A model generated the notes under the pieces. It was not told the origin of the DNA, ran no database searches, and worked only from the letters and a program-made list of their open reading frames with translations. Positions 1-17,835 of a stretch of DNA of 43,821 nt are shown one piece after another (position 1 is the first letter of the stretch; every line of letters begins with the position of its first letter). The DNA lies in the NCBI GenBank assembly GCA_946414505.1, contig CAMKOU010000002.1, forward strand, positions 1 to 43,821, given 5' to 3'. This stretch comes from an uncultured Clostridia bacterium. Its GTDB lineage: Bacteria > Bacillota > Clostridia > Oscillospirales > Acutalibacteraceae. A program made the translations under genes and the position numbers.

Positions 1-1431
1 GAGGAAGCAAAGCGCATTATTTCCGACGCGATGAAAACAGGCGAGGCAAAGAAAAAGGAGCTCGTGCTCGAGGGTAAAGAGGAGATCCACCGCTTCCGCA
101 ACGAGAGTGAAAAAGAAATTGCCGACCGCCGCCGCGAAGTGCAGCGCCAGGAACGCCGTATCCAGCAAAAGGAGGAAACGCTCGACCGCAAGATCGACAA
201 TGTCGAAAAAAAGGACGACCGCATTTCCAAAAAGCTGAAGGAGGCGGACGCCAAGCTGGCGGAAATCGAAACCATCAAAAAAAGCCAGTTCGAGATGCTC
301 GAAAAAATTTCGGGCTATACCGCCGAACAGGCAAAAAGCTATTTGCTCTCCCAATTGGAAGACGAGTTGACGCATGAAAAATCCGTGAAGATCATGGAGT
401 ATCAGGAGCGTCTCAAAGAAGAGGCCGATGAAAAGGCGCGAAATATTATTTCGCTTTCCATTCAGAAGCTTGCCGCCGAGCACGTGGCGGAAGCGACCAT
501 TTCGGTCGTCCCCCTGCCGAACGATGAAATGAAAGGTCGTATCATCGGCAGAGAGGGCAGAAATATCCGTGCGATCGAAACGCTGACGGGCGTTGATTTG
601 ATCATCGACGACACGCCCGAGGCGATCACCCTTTCGTGCTTCGAGCCCGTGCGGCGCGAGGTGGCGCGCATTGCGCTGGAAAGACTGATTTCCGACGGCA
701 GGATCCATCCTGCCAGAATTGAAGAAACCATTGAAAAGGCACGCCGCGAGGTGGACGCCACCATCAAAAAATCGGGCGAGCACGCGGTGCTGGAGCTGGG
801 CATCCACAACATCCATCCCGAGCTTGTAAAGCTGCTGGGACGCTTGCGTTACCGCACCAGCTACGGACAAAACGTGCTGGATCACTCGATCGAGGTTGCC
901 TATCTTGCCGGCATGATGGCAAGCGAGCTGGGACTGGACCCGACGCTGGCAAAGCGCGCAGGCCTGCTGCATGATATCGGCAAATCCATTGACCACGAGG
1001 TCGAGGGCACGCACATTCAAATCGGCGTGAACCTCGCCAGAAAATACAAGGAAAGCGACGCGGTCATCCATGCCATCCACGCCCACCACGGCGATGTGGA
1101 GGCAAAAACCATCGTTGCCATTCTCGTGCAGGCAGCCGACGCGCTGTCCGCCGCCAGACCGGGCGCCAGACGCGAAAATGTGGAAAACTACATCAAGCGC
1201 CTGCAAAAGCTGGAGGAGGTCGCCTCCTCGTTCAACGGCGTCGATAACTGCTACGCCATTCAGGCAGGCCGCGAGGTGCGTGTGATGGTGAAGCCCGAGG
1301 TCGTCAACGACGAACGCATGATCCCGCTTGCACGCGAAATTTGTAAAAAAATCGAGGAAGAGCTGGAATATCCCGGACAAATCAAGGTCAATATCATCCG
1401 CGAAAGCCGCGCTGCGGAATTCGCCAAATAA
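1..1431 (+). CDS. rny: Ribonuclease Y, 5'-truncated by window edge
   Basis: RNase Y is a membrane-anchored endoribonuclease that starts mRNA turnover. The reading frame is open from base 1 ([10 protein letters not shown] precedes the tracked Met at 31), so the N-terminal membrane segment and the start of the coiled coil lie outside the window. Visible parts in order are a long charged coiled coil rich in E, K and R, a KH RNA-binding domain with [11 protein letters not shown], and an HD phosphohydrolase domain with the metal-binding pair in [12 protein letters not shown] followed by HAHHGD. The C-terminus (FAK) is the usual family end. A strong terminator follows about 135 bp later. The identity is secure from the KH-HD order and the motifs. 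Confidence 0.97.
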
Positions 1432-1564
1432 CCGTTGCCACGGTGGGCAGGGCGCCTTTGGGGACCTTGCCGTGAATTTGATCGTTTTATTACCGGCGCG
1501 TCAAAACGTTGCGTTAGTTGATAAGCGGCTGACGGCGTTTGCGGTGTTTCTGATTAAAAAAATG

Positions 1565-1600
1565 ACATCACCTTTGTTTTTGGACAAGGGTGATGTTTTT
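1565..1600 (+). terminator. Intrinsic terminator after rny
   Basis: The arms ACATCACC and GGTGATGT form a stem extended by a CTTTG/CAAGG pairing, followed by a T run. It is oriented to end rny transcripts. Confidence 0.85.
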
Positions 1601-1627
1601 GTTTGCGGTAGATTTTTTTGTAAAAAA

Positions 1628-1775
1628 CATGTAGGGTCGCACCCATGTGTTCGCCCGAGCCGCGTGTTCCTGTCAAACCGTATCTGCCACGGAAACGCGC
1701 GGTTTCCTATCCCGGGCGACCATTGGTCGCCCCTACTGACGACTGCGTACTGACAGCTGACGACTGACTACTGAC
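1628..1775. repeat. Heptamer-array repeat element 1 (folT 3' side)
   Basis: A hairpin-rich core (about 1628-1733, with arms such as GGGCGACCATTGGTCGCCC) is followed by six in-phase 7-bp units of the type RRCTGAC or TACTGAC at 1734-1775. The stop codon of the minus-strand folT gene (1768-1770) lies inside the last units. About 60 bp of the core (1642-1702) is nearly the reverse complement of 7500-7560 in element 3. No inverted left array is visible here, so this copy looks partial. Confidence 0.8.
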
Positions 1776-2337
1776 CCTTTTTTCGTGCCAGCGACCGCTC
1801 GGCGGCGCAAATCAGCTTGCCGAGGGCAAAAATCAGCAGAATCTCGGGCACGGCACGTACCGCCACGCTGATGAACCGCGTCGCCAAAAAGGTGAGATAC
1901 GGCGTGGCGTAGCCGGGGTTCATGAAAATATAAAACCAAAACGCCGCCAAAAACGTTTCCACGGTGATCATGTTGACGCACCAGGCGAGTATCACGCGCG
2001 GCAGGGTGATTTGGTTTTTATACAGGAAGCAGCCGTATATAATGCCCGTCAGCGCGCCGCTGATCGTAAAGCCGGGAATATACGCGCCCATGGGTGCAAG
2101 GATGAACGACAACACGTCGCCCAGCGCGCCAACCAGCAGCCCCGACACGGGACCGAACAGCGAGCCTGCGGCGGCTATCGGCAAAAATGCCGCGCCGAAT
2201 TTGACCTGATTGCCGAAAAGCGGCAGCGTCGCGTTGGCAAACAGCCCCAGCACCACGCGCAAAGCGAGCAGCATGGCGACCAGCGCCAGCGTTTGCACCT
2301 TTTTCAGCTCGAGAAAAGAGTTTTTTAGCAGTTTCAT
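1768..2337 (-). CDS. folT: Folate ECF transporter S component
   Basis: This is a 189-residue membrane protein of the ECF substrate-binding (S component) type, predicted to bind folate and work with a shared EcfA/A'/T module that is not in this window. About six hydrophobic segments are visible, with FGAAFLPIAAAGSLFGP and a GALGDVLSFIL segment typical of the FolT group. I chose the ATG at 2337 because AGGAGG lies just upstream; the longer tracked ORF would start inside the riboswitch leader. The substrate call rests on the THF riboswitch in its leader. The stop codon is embedded in the heptamer array of element 1, so the last residues may be shaped by the repeat. Confidence 0.9.
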   Translation of the reverse strand: MKLLKNSFLELKKVQTLALVAMLLALRVVLGLFANATLPLFGNQVKFGAAFLPIAAAGSLFGPVSGLLVGALGDVLSFILAPMGAYIPGFTISGALTGIIYGCFLYKNQITLPRVILAWCVNMITVETFLAAFWFYIFMNPGYATPYLTFLATRFISVAVRAVPEILLIFALGKLICAAERSLARKKGQ

Positions 2338-2366
2338 ATGTTCCTCCTGAACCACAGAGGCGCTGC

Positions 2367-2506
2367 AAAAAAGAAAAGGCGGACAAACGCCCGCCTTGGT
2401 TTTTCGATGCGACAGCGGGATGCGAAACCGGCATCGCGGAACCTCCTTCGTTTCCACGGCAACTCCCCGTCCGTGAAACACTTAAACGCGCCGGCTTCTA
2501 CTCTGT
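2367..2506 (-). promoter_or_regulatory. THF riboswitch with terminator, controls folT
   Basis: Read on the minus strand, the leader carries AGAGTAGA followed by GCGCGTTTAAGTGT, the signature of the tetrahydrofolate (folT-type) aptamer, and closes with GCATCCCGCTGT (aptamer about 2412-2506). A GC hairpin (AAGGCGGGC/GTCCGCCTT) with a T-rich tail at 2367-2398 lies between aptamer and RBS, fitting transcriptional attenuation. The assignment is by recalled consensus; a covariance-model search was not run. Confidence 0.87.
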
Positions 2507-2524
2507 GAACTTTTTTACGATTCT

Positions 2525-2552
2525 ATTATAGCACCTTGTCGGTTTTTGTCAA
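2525..2552 (-). promoter_or_regulatory. Sigma-A promoter of folT
   Basis: TTGACA (2547-2552) and TATAAT (2525-2530) are separated by 16 bp on the minus strand, just upstream of the THF aptamer. Confidence 0.88.
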
Positions 2553-2596
2553 GATACTCTAGGCAATACCGCATCATTCAGGTGTGCGGTGTTGCC

Positions 2597-3271
2597 TCAG
2601 ATGATTTTGGCGAATATCAGGAGCACCAGCAGTAGCGTTGCGACCGCCGCCGCCGACACGATCACGATGATGACGGTGTTGGTTTTCCGGTTGTGGGGGC
2701 TGTCGTTGCTCTCTCTGGTGGGGATCAGCTTGGATTTGCGCAGCGCGGTCACCACCGGCTTGTAGAGCAGCAGCACCAGCGACGCGTTGAGCGCCGCCTT
2801 GATGGCATTGAACGGCAGCAGCAGGGTGGGGATCATGCTCACCACCGCCTCACGCGGCACGCCCATGTAGATCGGCGTCATGATATAGTTCCACAGCAGC
2901 ATCACGGCGATCATCGCCACGGCGCCTGCCACCAGCCCGATGATCGCGCGTGCGATCGTTTTTTTGCGGTAATAAATGACCGAAGCCACGCCCACAAACA
3001 CGGCCGATGCGAGAAAATTCATCAGCAGACCGATAAAGCCCGTGGAGCTGACGGTCACCATCTCCACCAGACAGACGACCAGCGACATCACCAGTCCGGC
3101 GATCGGGTTAAAGATAAACGCGCCGATGGTGAGGATCACATCCTTCGGCTCATAGGTAAGGAAGCCGCCGATGCCCGGGATGCGTAAAAAGATGTCTGCC
3201 GCGACCGCCAGCGCGGTCAGCATCGCCATAATGGCGAGGGTTTTGATTTTGTTTGTTGATTTTGCTGTCAT
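2597..3271 (-). CDS. ribU: Riboflavin ECF transporter S component
   Basis: This 224-residue integral membrane protein resembles RibU, the riboflavin-binding S component of ECF transporters. The N-terminal KIKTLAIMAMLTALAVAADIFLRIP and the YEPKDVILTIGAFIF segment fit the family. The ATG is preceded by AGGAGG at good spacing. The FMN riboswitch upstream independently supports flavin transport. The C-terminus is longer than I expect for RibU: after about residue 188 come a polar stretch (NDSPHNRKTN) and one more hydrophobic segment (VIIVIVSAAAVATLLLVLL), so a seventh membrane pass is possible. No T or ATPase component lies nearby. Confidence 0.92.
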   Translation of the reverse strand: MTAKSTNKIKTLAIMAMLTALAVAADIFLRIPGIGGFLTYEPKDVILTIGAFIFNPIAGLVMSLVVCLVEMVTVSSTGFIGLLMNFLASAVFVGVASVIYYRKKTIARAIIGLVAGAVAMIAVMLLWNYIMTPIYMGVPREAVVSMIPTLLLPFNAIKAALNASLVLLLYKPVVTALRKSKLIPTRESNDSPHNRKTNTVIIVIVSAAAVATLLLVLLIFAKII

Positions 3272-3314: not shown

Positions 3315-3497
3315 AAAAAGCCCCGCTGTACCGGAAATACAACGGGGCGTTCACGCGAAAAAAGCCGGATACGGCCAAAGCGCGTCTTCTTTCATCCGGA
3401 CTGTAACCGTCGGTGCCTGAATCGCACAGGCTCGGCAGACAAACTGTCTGTTCGTGGACTATACCACCGGTGGAGAATTTCACTCCGCCCCGAAGAC
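3315..3497 (-). promoter_or_regulatory. FMN riboswitch (RFN) with terminator, controls ribU
   Basis: The minus strand reads TTCGGGGCGGAGTGAAATTC, then CCACCGGTGGTATAGTCC, and ends with ACAGTCCGGATGAAAGAAGA, matching the RFN aptamer (about 3380-3497). A GCCCCGTTG/CAGCGGGGC hairpin followed by a T run at about 3315-3348 is the expression platform. High FMN should therefore reduce ribU transcription. Confidence 0.95.
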
Positions 3498-3510
3498 AAC
3501 CTTCATTTCT

Positions 3511-5145: not shown

Positions 5146-5277
5146 CAAAAAAATACGCCCTTCGACCGAAAGGCGTTCACAAAACTCATCTTCCGGTAAA
5201 ACCGCAGGATTTAGCACCTTGCAATGCAGGTTGCCGGGCTTCACAGGGCCTGTTCCCTCCGCCGCTCTTGATAAGGT
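5146..5277 (-). promoter_or_regulatory. SAM-I (S-box) riboswitch with terminator, controls metK
   Basis: The minus strand carries CTTATCAAGAGCGGCGGAGG, then CCCTGTGAAGCCCGGCAACC and GGTGCTAAATCCTGC, closing with AAGATGAG opposite CTTATC (aptamer about 5185-5277). A CGCCTTTCGG/CGAAGGGCG terminator hairpin with a T run at 5146-5178 precedes the metK RBS. All S-box landmarks are present. Confidence 0.96.
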
Positions 5278-9303: not shown

Positions 9304-9393
9304 AAAATCGCTTTTAATTCTATATTAGAATATCAACAAACGGCGGAATATGGTATAATAAATAGGAATATCGTTATATAAAGAGGAATGGTC

Positions 9394-10146
9394 ATGAAAG
9401 AAAACCATACAGAGCCAAAGCCCGACGTCATCGCGGGCAGAAATCCTGTCAGCGAGGCGCTTCGCAGCGGCAGACCCATCGACAAAATTTTGGTGGCGCG
9501 CGGCGAAAAAAGCGGCGCCGTGGTGGGGATCCTCGCCAAGGCGCGCGACCGGCAGATCCCCGTCAAGGAGGTCGACCGCGCCAAGCTGGACTTTCTGAGC
9601 GGCACGGCGCCCCACCAGGGGATCGCGGCGCTGGCGGCAGCCAAGGATTACTGCACCGTGGACGACATTTTCGCCTACGCCGCAGCGCGCGGCGAGCCGC
9701 CGTTTTTGGTGATTTTGGACGAGCTGGAGGATCCCCACAACCTCGGCGCGATCATCCGCACCGCCGAGTGCGCGGGCGTTCACGGCGTGATCGTTCCCAA
9801 ACGGCGCAGCGCGAGCCTCAGCTACACCGTGGGCAAGGCGAGCGCCGGCGCGGTAGAATATATGCGCGTGGCGCGCGTCACCAATATCGCCCAGCTGATC
9901 GACGACATCAAATCGCGCGGCGTGTGGGTGTACGGCGCGGACATGAACGGCACCGACTATTTGCAGTGTGATCTATCGGGTGCGTGCGCGCTGGTCATCG
10001 GCAACGAGGGCAAGGGCATTTCGCGGCTGGTGCGTGAAAAATGCGACGTCATTGTTTCGCTGCCGATGAAGGGCCGCATCAACTCGCTCAACGCCTCGGT
10101 CGCGGCGGGCATACTGATCTATCACGCGCTGACAGGCAGAAATTAG
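9394..10146 (+). CDS. rlmB: 23S rRNA 2'-O-methyltransferase RlmB/TrmH family
   Basis: This SpoU-class enzyme methylates a ribose in 23S rRNA using SAM. An N-terminal substrate-binding domain (AGRNPVSEALRSG to the HQGIAAL segment) precedes the SPOUT knot with ILDELEDPHNLGAIIRTAE (motif 1), LVIGNEGKGISRLV (motif 2) and LPMKGRINSLNASVAAGI (motif 3). The ATG at 9394 fits the AGAGG RBS better than the one at 9388. Length is 250 residues, normal for the family. The downstream pseudo-P-type ATPase gene starts 17 bp after the stop, so the two are probably co-transcribed. Confidence 0.95.
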   Translation: MKENHTEPKPDVIAGRNPVSEALRSGRPIDKILVARGEKSGAVVGILAKARDRQIPVKEVDRAKLDFLSGTAPHQGIAALAAAKDYCTVDDIFAYAAARGEPPFLVILDELEDPHNLGAIIRTAECAGVHGVIVPKRRSASLSYTVGKASAGAVEYMRVARVTNIAQLIDDIKSRGVWVYGADMNGTDYLQCDLSGACALVIGNEGKGISRLVREKCDVIVSLPMKGRINSLNASVAAGILIYHALTGRN

Positions 10147-10163
10147 CGAAAGGAAGTGAGGGC

Positions 10164-12701
10164 ATGTCGGATTTTGACAAAAACCGCTCACATACAGAAC
10201 AGGAACCGGAGGGCGCTGCCGAGGATCCGCGGATGCTGGAGGCAACGCGGAAGTTTACGAAAAAGCCCAAGGTCATCGACATTTTCAGCAACACGGATCA
10301 AAAGCCGCGCCTGAAAAATCAAAATCCGCTGGAAGCCGACACGCCGCCTGCACCGCCGGCGGACAGCAGCAACGCCATCATCGGCGAAAAAACCGCCGCC
10401 ACCATGCAGGCAGCGCTGCTGATGGACGGCGACGATCCCCCGGAAAACGGCGCGGAAGCGGTGGTGACGCTCGCGCCGGAGTTTGACGAGGAAACGCAAT
10501 TTGCAGGCGAGGTGCTGGAGGAAGCGGAGCCGTTTCGCGAGATCACCAATATCGAAAGCATCAACACCATCGACATTTCGCTTGACCCTGCGCCTGCCCC
10601 GCAGGAGGAACCGCCGGCGGCGGCGCCTGCCGCGCCGGAGGAAACGCTGGGCTTCCGCATTACGCCGGACAAGCAGACCGAGCGCATTGTTGCCAAGGTG
10701 CCGGTTTACCGTCCCGACGAGCCGCAAAACACCCTCAACGTGAAGGCAGGCAGGTTTTCCAATGTGGTGGAGCTGGAATACAAGGAATATATCCGCTCCA
10801 AAAGTCCTGCGGTGGCGCCGCGTCCGCATGTGGAGCTGACAGACGTGGACGATTTTGAGGAGGACGTCAGCTCGCCGCAGGAGAAGATCCTCGGCGCGGT
10901 GGTCGGCTTTTTCTCGAAGGACGACGCGCAGGGCGGCAACACGCCGCACGAGGAAAAGGAAACGCCCGTGGAGGATTACACGGGCGAGGACGACGAGCGC
11001 AGCATCAAATATGAACTAAAGCAAAATATCCGCAAGCTGTTTTTCCGCAGCCTGATCTCCGGCGTGCTGGCGCTGGTGTCTGTCATCTTCACCGTGCTTG
11101 TCCGCGTGATGCCCGAGGGCATCCTCTCCGTCATCCCCGTGGCGCCCGCCGCCTACGCGGTGTTCAACCTGCTGCTGGCAGGCTCGGCGGTGGTGCTCAA
11201 CCGCGTGTCCATGCGCAACGGCCTGCAGCCGCTGCTGCGGCTCAAGGGCAACAGCGACACGGCGGTCGCCGTCGCCGGCGTTGCGGCATTGCTGCAATGT
11301 GTGTCCGCGTTTTTCATCCAGCTGGGACACATGTCCGCGTTCAACGTCAACTACTACTGCGCCGTCGTGCTGCTGGCGTTTTTTGCCAACAACGTCGGCA
11401 AGCTGGTGATGGTGCGGCGCGTGCGCGACAACTTCCTGTTTTTGACCGCCAAGGCGCCGAAATACGCGGCAAAGATCTACAACAACGAATCCGTGGCGGA
11501 CAAGCTGCTGAGCGGCACGCTGTCCGAAAAAAATCTGATCGCCTATCAGCATAAAACCAAGTTCGCCTCTAACTTTTTAAAGATCTCCTACGCGCCCGAC
11601 CCCAGCGAGGACTTGGCGTCCCGTCTGGCGCCGATCACCACGATCGCGGCGATCTCCACGGCGGTGCTGTGCGGCGTGATCCGCCTGTCCTTTGCCGAGG
11701 CGTTCGGCGCGCTGGCGCTGGTGACGGCGATCGGCATCCCGATCTCCACGCTGCTGGCGGTCAACGTGCCCGTGCGCAAGCTGTGCAAAACCCTGACCGC
11801 CTACGGCGCGATGATGGCGGGCTTTCCGTCCATCAAGCAATTTTGCGACAGCACCGCCGTAATGATCGACGCCGAGGAGCTGTTCCCCGCCGACTCGATC
11901 GACTTGGAGGGCATCAAAACCTTTGAGGAGTACAACGTTGACGAGTCGCTGCTGTGCGGCATCGCCGTGCTCAAGGAGGCGCAAAACCCGATCGCCAACG
12001 CCTTTGCCACCGTGGTCAGCGAAACCAAGGAAACGCTGCCCGATGTGGAAAGCGTGCTGTACGAGGACGGCATGGGACTGGTCGGCTGGATCAACGGCGA
12101 GCGCATTTTGGTCGGCTCGCGCAAGCTGATGGAAAAATACCATGTGGAGATGCCGCAGGAGAACTATGAGGAACAGTACACCCACGACGGCAGACAGATC
12201 TCGTTTTTGTCGCGCGCCGGCAATTTGGTGGCGATTTTGGTGACGCGCTACCGTGCCGATCCGGAGCTGAAAAGCGAGCTGCAGCGTGCCGAAGCAAACG
12301 GCATCAGCTTTTTGATCCGCTCCACCGACTACAACATCAGCGAGGATCTGGTGGCGAATCTATACAACGTATTTTACCGCAGCGTCAAGGTGCTGCCCAC
12401 CGGCCTGGGCAACGTGCTGAAGGAGGCGTGCAGCGTCACCGAGGATCAGTCACGCGCCTATTTGATCACGCGCGGCAAGGCGCCCGGTCTGGCGCGCGCG
12501 GTGTCCGGCTGTGTGAAAATCAAGCAAAACATCACCCTTGCCATTGTCATTCAGCTGATCGCCGTGATCCTCGGGTTGCTGATCGCCGTTCCGCTGGCGC
12601 TGTATGCCGGCGTCGGCGTGATGGGATCCGCCGAGGTGTTGATTTACGCTGTTTTTTGGGCGGTCGCCGCCATTGTCGCCCCGGCGATACAAAAACCGTA
12701 G
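10164..12701 (+). CDS. Degenerate P-type ATPase-like membrane protein
   Basis: The protein is 845 residues from the ATG at 10164, which follows AAGGAAGTGAG. Residues 1-285 are polar, acidic and Pro/Ala-rich, probably disordered. Several membrane segments follow between about 290 and 535. The rest aligns by eye with the P1B-ATPase cytoplasmic region: DSTAVMIDAEELF where VVFDKTGTL is expected (Asp 569 kept, KTGT lost), AQNPIANAF at the HP-motif site, GMGLVGWINGERILVGSRKLM for the N-domain, and RSTDYN instead of TGDN. The A-domain TGE loop is absent and IGIPIS replaces the CPC region. A final membrane pair closes it at about 785-842. Catalysis is unlikely; a scaffold or sensor role is inferred. 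Neighbours are rlmB and rpe. Confidence 0.7.
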   Translation: MSDFDKNRSHTEQEPEGAAEDPRMLEATRKFTKKPKVIDIFSNTDQKPRLKNQNPLEADTPPAPPADSSNAIIGEKTAATMQAALLMDGDDPPENGAEAVVTLAPEFDEETQFAGEVLEEAEPFREITNIESINTIDISLDPAPAPQEEPPAAAPAAPEETLGFRITPDKQTERIVAKVPVYRPDEPQNTLNVKAGRFSNVVELEYKEYIRSKSPAVAPRPHVELTDVDDFEEDVSSPQEKILGAVVGFFSKDDAQGGNTPHEEKETPVEDYTGEDDERSIKYELKQNIRKLFFRSLISGVLALVSVIFTVLVRVMPEGILSVIPVAPAAYAVFNLLLAGSAVVLNRVSMRNGLQPLLRLKGNSDTAVAVAGVAALLQCVSAFFIQLGHMSAFNVNYYCAVVLLAFFANNVGKLVMVRRVRDNFLFLTAKAPKYAAKIYNNESVADKLLSGTLSEKNLIAYQHKTKFASNFLKISYAPDPSEDLASRLAPITTIAAISTAVLCGVIRLSFAEAFGALALVTAIGIPISTLLAVNVPVRKLCKTLTAYGAMMAGFPSIKQFCDSTAVMIDAEELFPADSIDLEGIKTFEEYNVDESLLCGIAVLKEAQNPIANAFATVVSETKETLPDVESVLYEDGMGLVGWINGERILVGSRKLMEKYHVEMPQENYEEQYTHDGRQISFLSRAGNLVAILVTRYRADPELKSELQRAEANGISFLIRSTDYNISEDLVANLYNVFYRSVKVLPTGLGNVLKEACSVTEDQSRAYLITRGKAPGLARAVSGCVKIKQNITLAIVIQLIAVILGLLIAVPLALYAGVGVMGSAEVLIYAVFWAVAAIVAPAIQKP

Positions 12702-12725
12702 TATTTTATGAAAGGGTATGATCGC

Positions 12726-13370
12726 ATGAAAATCGCTCCTTCGCTGCTGTCCTGTGACTTTTCCGTCATGGGGGCGGAAATAGAACGCATGGACAAGGCA
12801 GGCGCCGACTGGATGCACCTGGACGTGATGGACGGCCACTTTGTGCCCAACCTCACCTTTGGCGCTCCCGTCATCAAACGGGTGCGCCGCTACACCGCCA
12901 AACCGTTTGACGTACATTTGATGATTTCCGAGCCGCTGCGCTACATCGACGATTTTGCCGCTGCCGGCGCGGATATCATCACCTTTCACGTGGAGTGCGA
13001 TTCCGATATCGGCGCCACCATCGACAAGATCAGGGACAACGGCATTTTGCCGGGACTGGTTCTCAAGCCGGGCACCCCTGCCGAGGCGGTATTCCCCTAT
13101 TTGGACAAGCTGGCGCTGGTGCTGGTGATGACCGTGGAGCCGGGCTTTGGCGGACAGTCGTTTATGGCGGACATGCTGCCAAAGGTGCGGCAGATCAAAG
13201 CCGAATGCGCACGGCGCGGCTTAACCGTTTTGATTGAAGCGGACGGCGGCATCGGAGAAGCCACCATCGCGCAGTGCGCCGCAGCCGGCGTGGATGTTTG
13301 CGTTGCGGGCACGGCGGTGTTTCAGGCGGACGACCCCGCCCAAGCCATCGCGCAGCTGCAGGCATATTAG
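12726..13370 (+). CDS. rpe: Ribulose-phosphate 3-epimerase
   Basis: Rpe interconverts ribulose 5-phosphate and xylulose 5-phosphate in the pentose phosphate pathway. The 214-residue TIM barrel shows IAPSLLSCDF, MHLDVMDGHFVPNLTFG (metal-binding His and Asp), VHLMISEP, MTVEPGFGGQSF and EADGGI, all diagnostic. The ATG at 12726 follows AAAGGG at nine bases; the tracked Met at 12708 overlaps that RBS. It lies 24 bp after the pseudo-ATPase stop and ends before a strong bidirectional terminator. Confidence 0.97.
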   Translation: MKIAPSLLSCDFSVMGAEIERMDKAGADWMHLDVMDGHFVPNLTFGAPVIKRVRRYTAKPFDVHLMISEPLRYIDDFAAAGADIITFHVECDSDIGATIDKIRDNGILPGLVLKPGTPAEAVFPYLDKLALVLVMTVEPGFGGQSFMADMLPKVRQIKAECARRGLTVLIEADGGIGEATIAQCAAAGVDVCVAGTAVFQADDPAQAIAQLQAY

Positions 13371-13444: not shown

Positions 13445-13903
13445 TCATTTTATGATCTTGCTGTTGAGCACTTTGCCGTTTTTCGACACAAACACGTAAA
13501 CGATCACCATGTTGTCCACACCCGTTTCGGCGCGCGCCGCTTTGATGTCCAGCGCACTGACAGAGCCGAGGGGAACACTTTCCAGGGCAGACGCCTGTTC
13601 GTCTGTCACATCCGCCTTGACGTCCACGCGGAATACCACGACGTTGCCTTTGGCATAAATATCCATCGCTATCTGATCGGTTCCCAGACTTGACTGATAC
13701 GCGTCCAAGCCCTTTTCGCTCATGTAGCTTTCGAGTTTTTTCTGTGCCGCTGTGTCAGACGTGTCAATGGCGTCGTCGGTGTACAGAACCACACCGTTTT
13801 TGTCCTTCAGCTCATGCACGTTGCTGCCCGCGCAGGCGGTGAACAGCAGACACGCCGCCAGCAGAACGGCGATCAGCGAGATATGTTTGATGCTTTTTTT
13901 CAT
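13445..13903 (-). CDS. Small lipoprotein with kinase-ectodomain-like fold
   Basis: The 152-residue protein has a lipoprotein signal (KKSIKH, a hydrophobic core, then LFTAC with the lipid Cys). The mature part resembles the extracellular domain of the kinase just upstream: both start with a LKxxxGVxLxxDxxIxT-like strand, a helix ending in SYM, and close on an xxVIVYVFVSKNGK or PQIVYAYYTKSGD strand. This may belong to the DUF4854-like group, which I cannot confirm without a search. It starts 26 bp after the kinase stop with an AAGGAGA RBS, so it is co-transcribed and probably works with the kinase at the membrane. Confidence 0.65.
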   Translation of the reverse strand: MKKSIKHISLIAVLLAACLLFTACAGSNVHELKDKNGVVLYTDDAIDTSDTAAQKKLESYMSEKGLDAYQSSLGTDQIAMDIYAKGNVVVFRVDVKADVTDEQASALESVPLGSVSALDIKAARAETGVDNMVIVYVFVSKNGKVLNSKIIK

Positions 13904-13929
13904 TGTCCTACATCTCCTTACGGGGGTAT

Positions 13930-15648
13930 TTAATCATCCACGATCACCGTGGTGATCACATCGCCGGATTTTGTGTAATAGGCATAGACGATTTGCGGGT
14001 CTTCGACGTCCGCCTTGTTGATCAGATCGCCTTTAAAGGATATGACCTGTTCGTTGGTTTTCAAGGTGGCGGTGTCCTTTTTCAGCTGTGCTATCTGCGC
14101 CGCGCTCAAGTCAATGACATACTTGTATTGCAGCACCAGCGTGTTGCCCGACACAAAGTAGGAGTATTTGAACTCATCGGTCGATACGTCGCGGTCATTG
14201 GCGACCATATAGCTCGTCAGGCGCTGCTCGGCGCGGACGTCGCCGGTATTGATGCGGTTGTCCTCCAGCAAATACACGCCGCCTTCGTTTTTCAGCGTAT
14301 GCGCCGACGCGGAAACGCTCGTTTCGGGCTCGCTTTCCTCCTCCGACGACTGCTCGGTTTCCTCGCTGCTTTGCACGTCGGAGGTGTCGGCGGCGGACGA
14401 AACCGAAGAGGGCGTATAGCGGCTCAGGCTGACTTGGCTGCTTTGCGTGCCGGTTGGCGTGTCGGGCGTATTTCCCCTGCCGCCCAGCAGCGTCACCGCT
14501 GCCACGATACCGCCGCCGATCAGCACCACGGCGGCAACCAGCACGATAATGAGCGGCGCTTTGGATTTTTTCGCCGGCGTTTTATCCGCCGGTGTGACAG
14601 GATGCACGGGCGGCGTGACAGTGTGCACGGGCGGCATAACAGGCGGTTTGAGCGGACGCACCGGCGGCGCCACGGGCTGGTTGCCGACGGTCGGCGTGGT
14701 AAACTCTTTGATCAGCGTTTGCATGTCGGGCGTGCGGTCTTCCCTGTGCAGCGCCAGGCCGTGCATCAGCGCACGCTCCTGATACGGCAGCACCTTGACG
14801 CCGAGCTGCGACGGCGGCTGCAGGGTGTCCTTTGCCAAACGGTCGAGACTGCTGACCGGCACCTTGCCCGTGATGCAGGCATAGATGGTGGCGCACAGCG
14901 CATACACATCGGTGTAGGGACCCTGCTGGCCGTTGGAGCGATACTGCTCCTCCGGCGCGAAGCCCTGCTTGAGGATCACCGACATTTGCCGCTCGGAATT
15001 GGTATAGTACCGCGCCGAGCCGAAATCCATCAGCTTCAGCTTGCCGCGCTTGGTGTACATGATATTATCGGGGCTGATGTCGCGGTGAATGATGCCGCGC
15101 GCGTGGATCACGCTGAGCGAGTGCATGACCGGCACCAGCAGCGACACCAGCTGCTCCAGCGAAAAGCAGCCGTGGTGGTTCACATAATCCTTGAGCGTTT
15201 CGCCGTTGAGGTATTCCATGACGATGTACGCCGTGCCGTTCGCCTGGAAATAGTCGAGCACATACACGATGCCCTCTTCCTCCGAAAACGCCGCAACGTT
15301 TTTCGCCTCCACCAAAAAGCGCTCCACACCGCGGTTGAAGAAGTCCTCCTTGCCCTGTGAAACCATCACCACGGTGGACTCGCTGTTGCTGCGGTTGGCG
15401 GCGCCGGAGGGATAAAACTCCTTGATGGCAACGCGCTTGGACAGGGTGGTGTCCAAGCCGATATAGGTGATGCCAAAGCCCCCCTCGCCGATGACATTGC
15501 CGACGAGATACCGCCCTGTCAGCATGGTGCCGCAAGGCAAATGATAGGGAGAGCCGGAGCGCGGCGCAGCGGCATTGTCGTAGCCGCAGTGCGGACAAAC
15601 CGACGCGCCCTTCAGCGATCGCATACATTTATAACAATAGTTTTGCAT
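13930..15648 (-). CDS. Membrane Ser/Thr protein kinase with zinc ribbon and ectodomain
   Basis: The 572-residue protein begins with a zinc ribbon (CYKC and CPHC, residues 5-21). The kinase domain (about 46-310) has GEGGFG (54-59), catalytic Lys 76 in AIKEF, HRDISPDN (Asp 190), DFG (208-210) and an APEEQY segment. A Pro-rich linker leads to one membrane segment (about 365-387), then a Ser/Glu-rich stalk and a globular C-terminal domain (about 450-572) outside the cell. It carries no PASTA repeats, so it is not PrkC. A sigma-A promoter lies at 15705-15733. Substrates cannot be told from sequence; the neighbouring single-pass proteins are candidates. Confidence 0.93.
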   Translation of the reverse strand: MQNYCYKCMRSLKGASVCPHCGYDNAAAPRSGSPYHLPCGTMLTGRYLVGNVIGEGGFGITYIGLDTTLSKRVAIKEFYPSGAANRSNSESTVVMVSQGKEDFFNRGVERFLVEAKNVAAFSEEEGIVYVLDYFQANGTAYIVMEYLNGETLKDYVNHHGCFSLEQLVSLLVPVMHSLSVIHARGIIHRDISPDNIMYTKRGKLKLMDFGSARYYTNSERQMSVILKQGFAPEEQYRSNGQQGPYTDVYALCATIYACITGKVPVSSLDRLAKDTLQPPSQLGVKVLPYQERALMHGLALHREDRTPDMQTLIKEFTTPTVGNQPVAPPVRPLKPPVMPPVHTVTPPVHPVTPADKTPAKKSKAPLIIVLVAAVVLIGGGIVAAVTLLGGRGNTPDTPTGTQSSQVSLSRYTPSSVSSAADTSDVQSSEETEQSSEEESEPETSVSASAHTLKNEGGVYLLEDNRINTGDVRAEQRLTSYMVANDRDVSTDEFKYSYFVSGNTLVLQYKYVIDLSAAQIAQLKKDTATLKTNEQVISFKGDLINKADVEDPQIVYAYYTKSGDVITTVIVDD

Positions 15649-15704
15649 ATTTAACCGTCCTAAATGTTGCTGTAATTGTCGTTGGCAGACAACTACGCAA
15701 TTAT

Positions 15705-15733
15705 ATTATAGCCCATCTTGCAGGATATTGCAA
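15705..15733 (-). promoter_or_regulatory. Promoter of the kinase-lipoprotein operon
   Basis: TTGCAA (15728-15733), 17 bp, TATAAT (15705-15710) on the minus strand, about 57 bp before the kinase start. Confidence 0.83.
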
Positions 15734-15770
15734 TATCAAAATGATAACAATCCCGATGCTTTTGCGCAAA

Positions 15771-15798
15771 AGCAGGCAGCCGCAAACGGCTGCCTGCT
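15771..15798 (-). terminator. Hairpin after the zinc-ribbon gene
   Basis: AGCAGGCAGCCG and CGGCTGCCTGCT form a 12-bp stem with a four-base loop just past the stop of the 330-residue gene. The T tract after it is short. Confidence 0.7.
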
Positions 15799-15821
15799 GT
15801 ATGGTCAAAAACAAACGACAA

Positions 15822-16814
15822 TTAATATGGCGTAAAGGTGGCGCCGGTCGGCAGCTTCCACTCGCCGTTATAGCGCGCCATATAAATGGTGTTGTCTTCG
15901 GTTTGGTTCATCGACTGTCCCATGACATAACCGGTCACCTTAACGGTGGCGTCCACCGCCGCGATCTCGGTAATATTGTTTTGCTTGACGGTATCGCTTG
16001 TAAACCGACTGACCATGCTTTTAAATTCGCTGCTGTTTTTATCGTACACCTTGCACTTGTCGTCGTGAACATCCACTTCGTACTTCATGCCGTTCAACAG
16101 CGCCAGGCTGCTGCGGTCCGCATCGGTGATCTGATAGTCGTTGTCGATGGTATACTTTTTGATAACCTCTTCGTACTGACCCGCGTTCAGCAAGGCAAAC
16201 ACATCATTCAAGGCGTCCTTGTAGCTGCCCTTGGACGGGTTGGCACAGCTGCGGAACACGAAAATGCCGCCGACGATCACGGCAACCGCCAACACCGCCG
16301 CCACGATGATCAGCACCAGCTTTTTGGTGCCCAAGCCCTTTTTGGTTTGTGTGGGAACGGGGTTGTTGTAGCCGGGCTGATAGGCAGGCTGTGTGCTGCT
16401 GTACTGCGACGGCTGCTGATATTGCTGAAATTGCTGTTCAAAATTATTCTGCGGCTGTGGCGCCGGATACGCCTCCTGCTGCCGGTACTGCGTCGCCGCA
16501 GGCGGCTGCTCATAAACAGGCTGTTCCGCGGCGGGCGGCTCATAGGCAGGCTGTTCCGCGGCAGGCGGTGCGGTCGGCTGATTGCCGGGCGCAAAGCTCC
16601 ACGGCGAAGCGGCAGGCGCAGGCGTTTCCGGCTGCGGCGCGCTTTCGGGAACCGGCACTTCGTCAAAATTTGCCGCAACGGTTTTTTCCACCTCTAAGGC
16701 AGGCTGCGGATCAGGCTGCGGCGCGCTTTTGACGGCGTCCTGCAGCTTGGCGCCGCATCCGGAGCAAAACAGTTGGTTGGGCGTGATGGGTCGGTTGCAT
16801 CTTGGACAATTCAT
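15822..16814 (-). CDS. Zinc-ribbon single-pass membrane protein
   Basis: The 330-residue protein starts with a zinc ribbon (C3, C6, C17, C20), continues with a low-complexity Pro/Gln/Ala/Tyr region (about 30-158), one membrane segment (about 166-187) and an extracellular domain of about 140 residues. That domain includes YKDALNDVFALLNAGQYEEV, as in small helical membrane-stress domains, and ends in a beta-rich part (MARYNGEWKLPTGATF). The zinc ribbon plus membrane-anchored outer domain repeats the layout of the neighbouring kinase. It is probably a cell-surface sensor or accessory protein; the exact role is not known. Confidence 0.75.
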   Translation of the reverse strand: MNCPRCNRPITPNQLFCSGCGAKLQDAVKSAPQPDPQPALEVEKTVAANFDEVPVPESAPQPETPAPAASPWSFAPGNQPTAPPAAEQPAYEPPAAEQPVYEQPPAATQYRQQEAYPAPQPQNNFEQQFQQYQQPSQYSSTQPAYQPGYNNPVPTQTKKGLGTKKLVLIIVAAVLAVAVIVGGIFVFRSCANPSKGSYKDALNDVFALLNAGQYEEVIKKYTIDNDYQITDADRSSLALLNGMKYEVDVHDDKCKVYDKNSSEFKSMVSRFTSDTVKQNNITEIAAVDATVKVTGYVMGQSMNQTEDNTIYMARYNGEWKLPTGATFTPY

Positions 16815-16962
16815 GTGGTACCTCCGTTATGTAATGGAGAACCCCTGCACGGTGTGCGCGTGAAGGCCTCCATGATGATTTTGATTGAAATAACGCCGGT
16901 TTCCCGCCGCCGCGCGTTTTCACGACCGGGAGCCGTGCGGCGTCACGCTGCCGTACCGCGCG

Positions 16963-17835
16963 TCAGTCAACGTAATTGGCATAGAATTGCAGGTTGTTTT
17001 TGTCCACAACGAAAATTTCAAGCACCGCGTTGGTAACGCCGGTTTTTATTTTCATATCATACACCTTTGCGTCCAGCTGCGTGCAAAGCGTGTTCATCTT
17101 GTCGATCACCGCATTAAAATAATTCGCCTGTGAAGCGTCGTTGACGTCCGCGTTCACCGTGTACCGCGCGATCAGCGAGCCGTTTTCGGCGCTGACGGAG
17201 CCGGACATGTTGCTGTCCGCCGCATTGCGCAGGGTATCGATCAAGCCGCTGCTTTGCGCATATTCCATCAGCTTTTCTTCATCCGATTTCGGCGTGGTGG
17301 TCGCCGGCGGAATGGTGACGGGCGCAACAGTGGTGGGCGGTGCCGTGGTGGGCGCAACGGTGGTGGGCGGTGCCGTGGTGGTGGGCGCAGGCTGCGTGGT
17401 GGGCGGCGGCGGTATGGCGCCGGGTACCGCCGTACTGGCGGAAGCAGGCGCGGACGAAGCCGCAACGGTCGTCTCCGGCTCTATGACCAGCGGCGGCGTT
17501 GTTTTTTTGTTGCGCGGAGAGAGGGTGATGAACAGCGCGATGCCCGCCGCGATCAGCGTCAGCAGGATGATGATAATGATCATCACAGGCTTTTTGGAAC
17601 GCACTCTCTCGGCCTCTTCGTTGGTAAAATAGACTAAGTTTTTATCTATGGCGGCGTCCGGTTCATCCCCGTTCTTACCCTTTTTCTTTCTTTTGCCCGG
17701 TGCTTGTTCTTCTTCTTCGTCTTCTTCGTTTTTATTAAAAAAAACCACTAAATCCTGGTCAATGACGCTTGATTGATCTTCTTCATTATTGTTTACCGGT
17801 GGACGGTTGTTGTTGTTTCCGTCAGAATGATCCAT
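16963..17835 (-). CDS. Single-pass protein with Thr/Pro stalk and ectodomain
   Basis: The 290-residue protein has an acidic N-terminal cytoplasmic region with a duplicated motif, IDQDLVVFFNK (25-35) and IDKNLVYFTN (63-72), then a basic patch, one membrane segment (about 84-105), a Thr/Pro/Ala stalk (about 112-182) and a C-terminal domain of about 105 residues. That domain (DEEKLMEYAQSSG to NAVLEIFVVDKNN) resembles the ectodomains of the kinase and the 152-residue lipoprotein in strand order. The start is preceded by GGAGG and a promoter lies at 17883-17911. The duplicated cytoplasmic motif could bind a partner or be phosphorylated by the kinase. Confidence 0.65.
   Translation of the reverse strand: MDHSDGNNNNRPPVNNNEEDQSSVIDQDLVVFFNKNEEDEEEEQAPGKRKKKGKNGDEPDAAIDKNLVYFTNEEAERVRSKKPVMIIIIILLTLIAAGIALFITLSPRNKKTTPPLVIEPETTVAASSAPASASTAVPGAIPPPPTTQPAPTTTAPPTTVAPTTAPPTTVAPVTIPPATTTPKSDEEKLMEYAQSSGLIDTLRNAADSNMSGSVSAENGSLIARYTVNADVNDASQANYFNAVIDKMNTLCTQLDAKVYDMKIKTGVTNAVLEIFVVDKNNLQFYANYVD

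Follow-up and report, generated by a model that had tools for sequence, protein, structure and literature searches.

The region analysed here is a 43,821-nucleotide stretch from an uncultured Clostridia bacterium of the order Oscillospirales (GenBank contig CAMKOU010000002.1), hereafter the window. Positions 10164-12701 of its forward strand encode an 845-amino-acid degenerate homologue of P1B-type ATPases, here called X, which was identified from the sequence and by NCBIfam, phmmer and hhalign searches. The reading frame is open from 10041, within the upstream gene, and its ATG at 10164 is preceded by a good ribosome-binding site, AGGAAGTGAG (10151-10160, forward strand). X is flanked by rlmB, encoding the 23S rRNA G2251 2'-O-methyltransferase (9388-10146, forward; TIGR00186, E = 3e-69), and rpe (12708-13370, forward; TIGR01163, E = 2.5e-79). 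The three genes lie on one strand, with 17 bases between rlmB and X and 6 bases between X and rpe. The initial annotation, made from the letters of the sequence, had described an intact frame of 845 codons between rlmB and rpe, and both statements proved correct. rlmB is the invariant upstream neighbour of X. Because rpe is found beside X in the same genus only and is absent there outside the genus, it was rejected as a functional partner. Next to rpe, the reverse strand carries genes for Ser/Thr protein kinase, DUF4854-like and zinc-ribbon proteins (13445-17835); in related loci the kinase and DUF4854-like copies are repeated, in varying number. The reverse strand of the window also contains THF (2411-2507), FMN (3380-3501) and SAM (5183-5277) riboswitches, the last of which lies ahead of metK.

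X starts with an acidic, low-complexity cytoplasmic tail (residues 1-285; 10164-11018). The long acidic N-terminal region noted earlier is disordered both by composition and in the structural model (pLDDT mostly under 45), and it contains no HMA domain and gives no Pfam match. Four pairs of transmembrane segments follow, which are equivalent to MA/MB (residues 292-345; 11037-11198), M1/M2 (residues 364-417; 11253-11414), M3/M4 (residues 486-535; 11619-11768) and M5/M6 (residues 788-842; 12525-12689). The first three pairs were assigned by hydropathy and hhalign and the last one by hydropathy and alignment. The eight segments follow the P1B order, in line with the surviving membrane layout noted earlier. 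In the M1/M2 pair, KGNSDT replaces the PNMD of P1B pumps. The A-domain is reduced to a remnant (residues 419-485; 11418-11618) from which the TGE loop is deleted (hhalign and alignment), and the CPC metal site is replaced by IGIPIS (residues 523-528; 11730-11747; family alignment). In the cytoplasmic part, DAEEL stands in place of DKTGT (residues 569-573; 11868-11882; family motif x-x-x-[DE]-[LIV]-F-P) and RSTDYN in place of TGDN (residues 719-724; 12318-12335; family motif T-x-D-x-N-[IV]). Between them lies the nucleotide-binding (N) domain (residues 576-700; 11889-12263), with GMGLVG...GSRKLM at residues 636-656. The site of a P-domain deletion, which removed the GDGxNDAPAL hinge, was placed by hhalign at 12426-12473. 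All of these features are on the forward strand.

Descent from P1B pumps and the altered active site

X matched the NCBIfam model for heavy-metal P-type ATPases, TIGR01525, with an E-value of 7e-14 and 51.6 bits, against a curated cut-off of 346 bits, and a phmmer comparison with CopA of PDB entry 3rfu gave 4e-8. No Pfam family, E1-E2_ATPase included, was matched at E-values up to 10. An NCBIfam match to PopZ (E = 2.7) was treated as noise. When the core of 39 X-family members was compared with 19 complete copper and heavy-metal P1B pumps by hhalign, the two profiles aligned over 535 columns from MA to M6 (probability 99.9, E = 6e-37). These three comparisons uphold the P-type relationship that the initial annotation had claimed. 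Gaps in the profile alignment show that about 72 residues of the A-domain core, including the TGE loop, and about 26 residues of the P-domain hinge, comprising GDGxNDAPAL and the following stretch, are deleted in the X family.

For the N-domain, a P1B-like fold is also indicated by the structural model. An AF2 model of the soluble part, based on 27 sequences, had good confidence (pLDDT 67-90) only in the N-domain, and this domain (model residues 42-162) matched that of CopA (2voy_J) with a Z-score of 15.1 and an rmsd of 1.9 over 116 residues. The P-domain was weakly modelled, with a pLDDT under 50, and a full-length model from 27 same-genus sequences reached a pLDDT of 44 and was left out of the fold comparison. 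KdpB, a P1A ATPase, shares the N-domain fold (Z = 11.5), but it is far more distant and is catalytic. In a maximum-likelihood tree, all 33 sampled X proteins formed one clade (UFBoot 95), on a stem of 1.3 substitutions per site beside the copper-type pumps.

Thus, X resembles the CopA-type P1B-1 pumps, its sister group, in the number and order of the membrane segments, in the N-domain fold and in the PNMD-like region ahead of M1. However, it lacks their DKTGT, TGE, GDGxND, catalytic Lys, CPC, SEHP and HMA domain, the A-domain core and P-domain hinge are deleted, and it has instead a long acidic disordered tail and conserved motifs of its own at the DKTGT and TGDN sites. Judged from these sequence features, X is a P1B ATPase by descent and by function fails the defining tests of a pump. 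The genome of the window also encodes a CopA-type pump with DKTGT, TGE, CPCA and GDGxND; since this intact pump persists, X is not its replacement.

The motifs quoted in the initial annotation (DAEEL, RSTDYN, IGIPIS and the GMGLVG...GSRKLM stretch) were all present, at the residues stated above. In addition, the Lys of HAD motif III is L748 in X, and the HP motif is NP (AQNP for SEHP). We examined 80 diverse members of the family and found the loss of motifs to be common to all of them. None has K570, G572 or T573 of DKTGT, a usable phosphorylation motif, the H of HP, the TGE loop or the CPC site, and the A-domain interval is 53-83 amino acids long in all 80. The acids of HAD motif IV are lost as well, and the ATP-contact E and H of SEHP are gone in nearly all members. 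Among the relatives at the rlmB locus, none has an intact DKTGT and all are without pump motifs, which rules out a recent loss in the window's copy.

Other positions are conserved instead. An acid (D or E) is present at residue 572 in 73 of the 80 members, F574 in 64 and P575 in 68; T or S occurs at residue 720 in 67, D722 in 78 and N724 in 67. The glycines of the N-domain are retained (G638, the second G of GxG, in 79; G651 in all 80), and Y696 and W832 are each found in 76 members (95%). Of the CPC site, the proline alone is conserved (P526, 84%). By homology, the loops of DKTGT and TGDN lie opposite one another, so residues 572, 574-575, 720, 722 and 724 probably form a rebuilt pocket.

Distribution of X and its link to rlmB

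Of the 247 genomes sampled from the order, 241 contained X, with E-values below 1e-45. They cover 25 families and 132 of 134 genera, and all have one copy except a single genome, which gave two matches. In a sample of the class, full-length matches were obtained in all nine genomes of the order and in none of 187 genomes outside it, where the best match had an E-value of 4.5e-38. The matches listed from these 187 genomes were limited to profile positions of about 198-502 and are ordinary pumps. Likewise, in a sample of 199 genomes of the phylum only the two genomes of the order passed an E-value of 1e-40. The nearest named records are from Ruminococcus bromii ATCC 27255 and Ruminococcaceae bacterium P7; the former species we take to be a member of the GTDB order Oscillospirales.

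Upstream DNA was available for 62 distinct loci besides that of the window. In every one of them X directly follows rlmB on the same strand, and the two genes are often a few bases apart or overlapping. A convincing X was lacking in six of the 247 genomes and, in another search, in two genomes of the same genus. One of these has rlmB, and its contig breaks off within a frame whose start resembles X. For the rest, the search for an rlmB orthologue gave nothing or paralogues of 27-34% identity. Since a genome without X either has no genuine rlmB or is interrupted by a contig end, most of these absences are assembly gaps. The two genes thus occur, or are missing, as a pair. Genus g185 is represented by two nearly complete genomes that have neither an rlmB orthologue nor X at a detectable level, and this may be a true co-loss. 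The link to rlmB may mean that the two genes are expressed together and need not mean that they share a function; we do not claim a role of X in rRNA methylation. That the family is order-wide, single-copy, bound to rlmB and marked by its own motifs in a dead active site was not visible in the initial annotation.

The N-terminal tail and a second degenerate P-type ATPase

The tail of X, 285 residues long in the window, reaches about 900 residues in other genera. Near its start, about a third of the relatives, from several families, carry the motif [FY]-[SDN]-[LIV]-[DE]-[DE]-I-L-x-E-[FYIV], or, in a narrower form, [FY]S[LIV]DDILAE[FYV]. The motif is absent from the window's own X, whose genus shows no more than a variant, LEIESILEE or LEIQSILDE; the DDILAE motif was accordingly rejected as the mechanism of this copy. 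A profile trained on X tails only was searched in 197 genomes of the order, and it also found the motif at the N- or C-terminal tails of other proteins, with seven matches at E-values of about 1e-3 or lower against 0.2 expected by chance. Among the 187 genomes of the class that lie outside the order, no match was better than 0.0044, which is chance level. The proteins concerned are ABC-2 polysaccharide-type permeases (locus L165, 250-1572; L171, 1297-2835; probably also L172), LspA at its C-terminus (L173, 404-1357; L177, 1949-2767), a protein that we read as signal-peptidase-I-like and that has no Pfam match, at its C-terminus (L174, 1830-2708), VanW-family proteins at their N-termini (L178, 532-2604; L179, 1396-3525) and a membrane protein at its C-terminus (L181, 1603-2433). 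Matches in RsmB and in a MazG-like protein, one genome each, were judged to be due to chance. A literature search on the motif returned nothing relevant. We regard the sharing of this motif between X and envelope proteins as a lead that stands outside the main claim.

The motif also occurs in a second degenerate P-type ATPase, found in two genomes of one genus (g173). One copy, of 684 amino acids, lies at 1038-3089 on the reverse strand of L175 (L175/L195) and has NKTGT at the phosphorylation site; its relative, L196, has SLSGT. Like X, these are membrane P-type proteins without the phospho-Asp, they lack TGE and GDGxND, and they bear the tail motif at the N-terminus (YDLDDIL or YDLEEIL). Unlike X, they keep TGDN and HP, lie on a different contig, occur in one genus only among those searched and have an independent origin in the tree, where they group with another P-type ATPase, L197, apart from X (support 100). 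L197, their sister, has DKTGV, TGD for TGE, GDGVAD and no CPC, and may represent an intermediate state. Since the second ATPase is separate from X in the tree, the phosphorylation site was lost at least twice in the order. This second, independent loss in a protein with the tail motif suggests that a change from pump to another role took place more than once.

Proposed role of X

Since nearly all members of the order keep one copy of X behind rlmB, the protein very probably has a conserved function other than pumping, one so far undescribed. X is predicted to be unable to form a phospho-enzyme and would thus be unable to pump. We put at about even the chance that X is an ancient pseudo-pump, which pumps no ions and now serves as a membrane-anchored, non-catalytic receptor or scaffold. 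Judging from the distribution and the tree, a CopA-like P1B ATPase was probably duplicated once in the ancestor of the order. The duplicate has lost the phospho-Asp motif, the catalytic Lys, the TGE loop, the hinge and the CPC metal site, and it has settled behind rlmB as a partner gene in single copy. It retains the eight membrane segments and the N-domain, together with an order-wide putative pocket, [DE]572, F574-P575 and T720-x-D722-x-N724, at the former phosphorylation site, whose geometry we infer from homology since the modelled P-domain has a low pLDDT. A ligand or partner may be bound by the former active-site cleft and the N-domain, with no catalytic turnover, and other proteins may dock at the membrane through the long acidic tail, which is disordered. 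The scaffold or sensor step is suggested by the architecture and by the general behaviour of pseudoenzymes such as pseudokinases and pseudopeptidases (PMC11266112, PMC12599244), in which, as in X, catalytic residues are lost, the fold is under selection and a role as scaffold or regulator is probable. A P-type ATPase family that is inactive across a whole bacterial order was not found in the literature searched, and CATP-1, a possible precedent for a pump-independent role, is disputed (PMC11631496). X is best classed as a so far undescribed branch of pseudoenzymes among the P1B ATPases.

A wider proposal, which we think unlikely, makes X a core, order-defining membrane organiser. Its dead pump body would sense a ligand, and the DDILAE-type tail would be a docking code that gathers X (in part of the order), the second pseudo-pump and envelope proteins (an ABC polysaccharide exporter, signal peptidases I-like and II, and VanW) at one cytoplasmic hub.

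Pseudoenzymes often regulate their active relatives (reviewed in PMC11266112), and X is closest to the copper-type pumps and has a complete CopA in the same genome. X might thus act as a regulatory subunit for an active P-type ATPase such as CopA, tuning its activity by dimerising with it or by competing for a metal chaperone. However, X adjoins rlmB and no metal-resistance gene in every locus checked, and it has neither an HMA domain nor a CPC site, so we consider such a role unlikely.

The conservation of all eight membrane segments and of helix-breaking prolines (P526 and likewise P536, 84%) would fit an ion channel or transporter, passive or gated, that still conducts in the absence of an ATP cycle and has the N-domain or what is left of the P-domain as its gate. 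X retains none of the known metal ligands (CPC, or YN of M5), however, and most of the strongly conserved residues are in the cytoplasmic domains and not in M4-M6, which makes a channel quite improbable. New chemistry in the altered active site (phosphatase, transferase or kinase), with D572 and D722 as metal ligands, is doubtful to the same degree. The former HAD active site does have at least two conserved acidic residues, but the catalytic Lys and the motif IV acids are lost and the HAD nucleophile, Asp, is present in only 36 of the 80 members, whereas an invariant nucleophile is what one would expect of a universal enzyme. Because some members do keep this Asp, unusual chemistry in the pocket is conceivable.

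That X is a decaying pseudogene or an annotation artefact is almost certainly wrong, since the frames are open in nearly all listed copies from several hundred genomes, new motifs and the gene order are conserved, and the median within-genus dN/dS of the X core is 0.12. The core is therefore under strong purifying selection, much as rlmB is: by the same measure rlmB gave 0.11, rpe 0.09 and the X tail 0.21 (Nei-Gojobori method, 98 pairs with dS under 1.2, the pairs not being independent of one another). Two distant copies of X, whose reading frames are interrupted by a stop or a frame break, fit decay. One has an in-frame TGA, yet its gene order is as elsewhere; either an assembly error or real decay may explain these two copies. 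Together with the N-domain fold and the shared loss of motifs, the core dN/dS bears out the initial description of X as a maintained pseudoenzyme.

In conclusion, X is a membrane protein that occurs once per genome, and almost universally, in a major order of gut bacteria. It is invisible to Pfam and has no curated family, and so this core component of the cells has escaped notice. X provides a clear case of a P-type ATPase that was made a pseudoenzyme in one ancient event and was then strongly selected for a different role, and it makes directly testable what the body of a pump can do without pumping.
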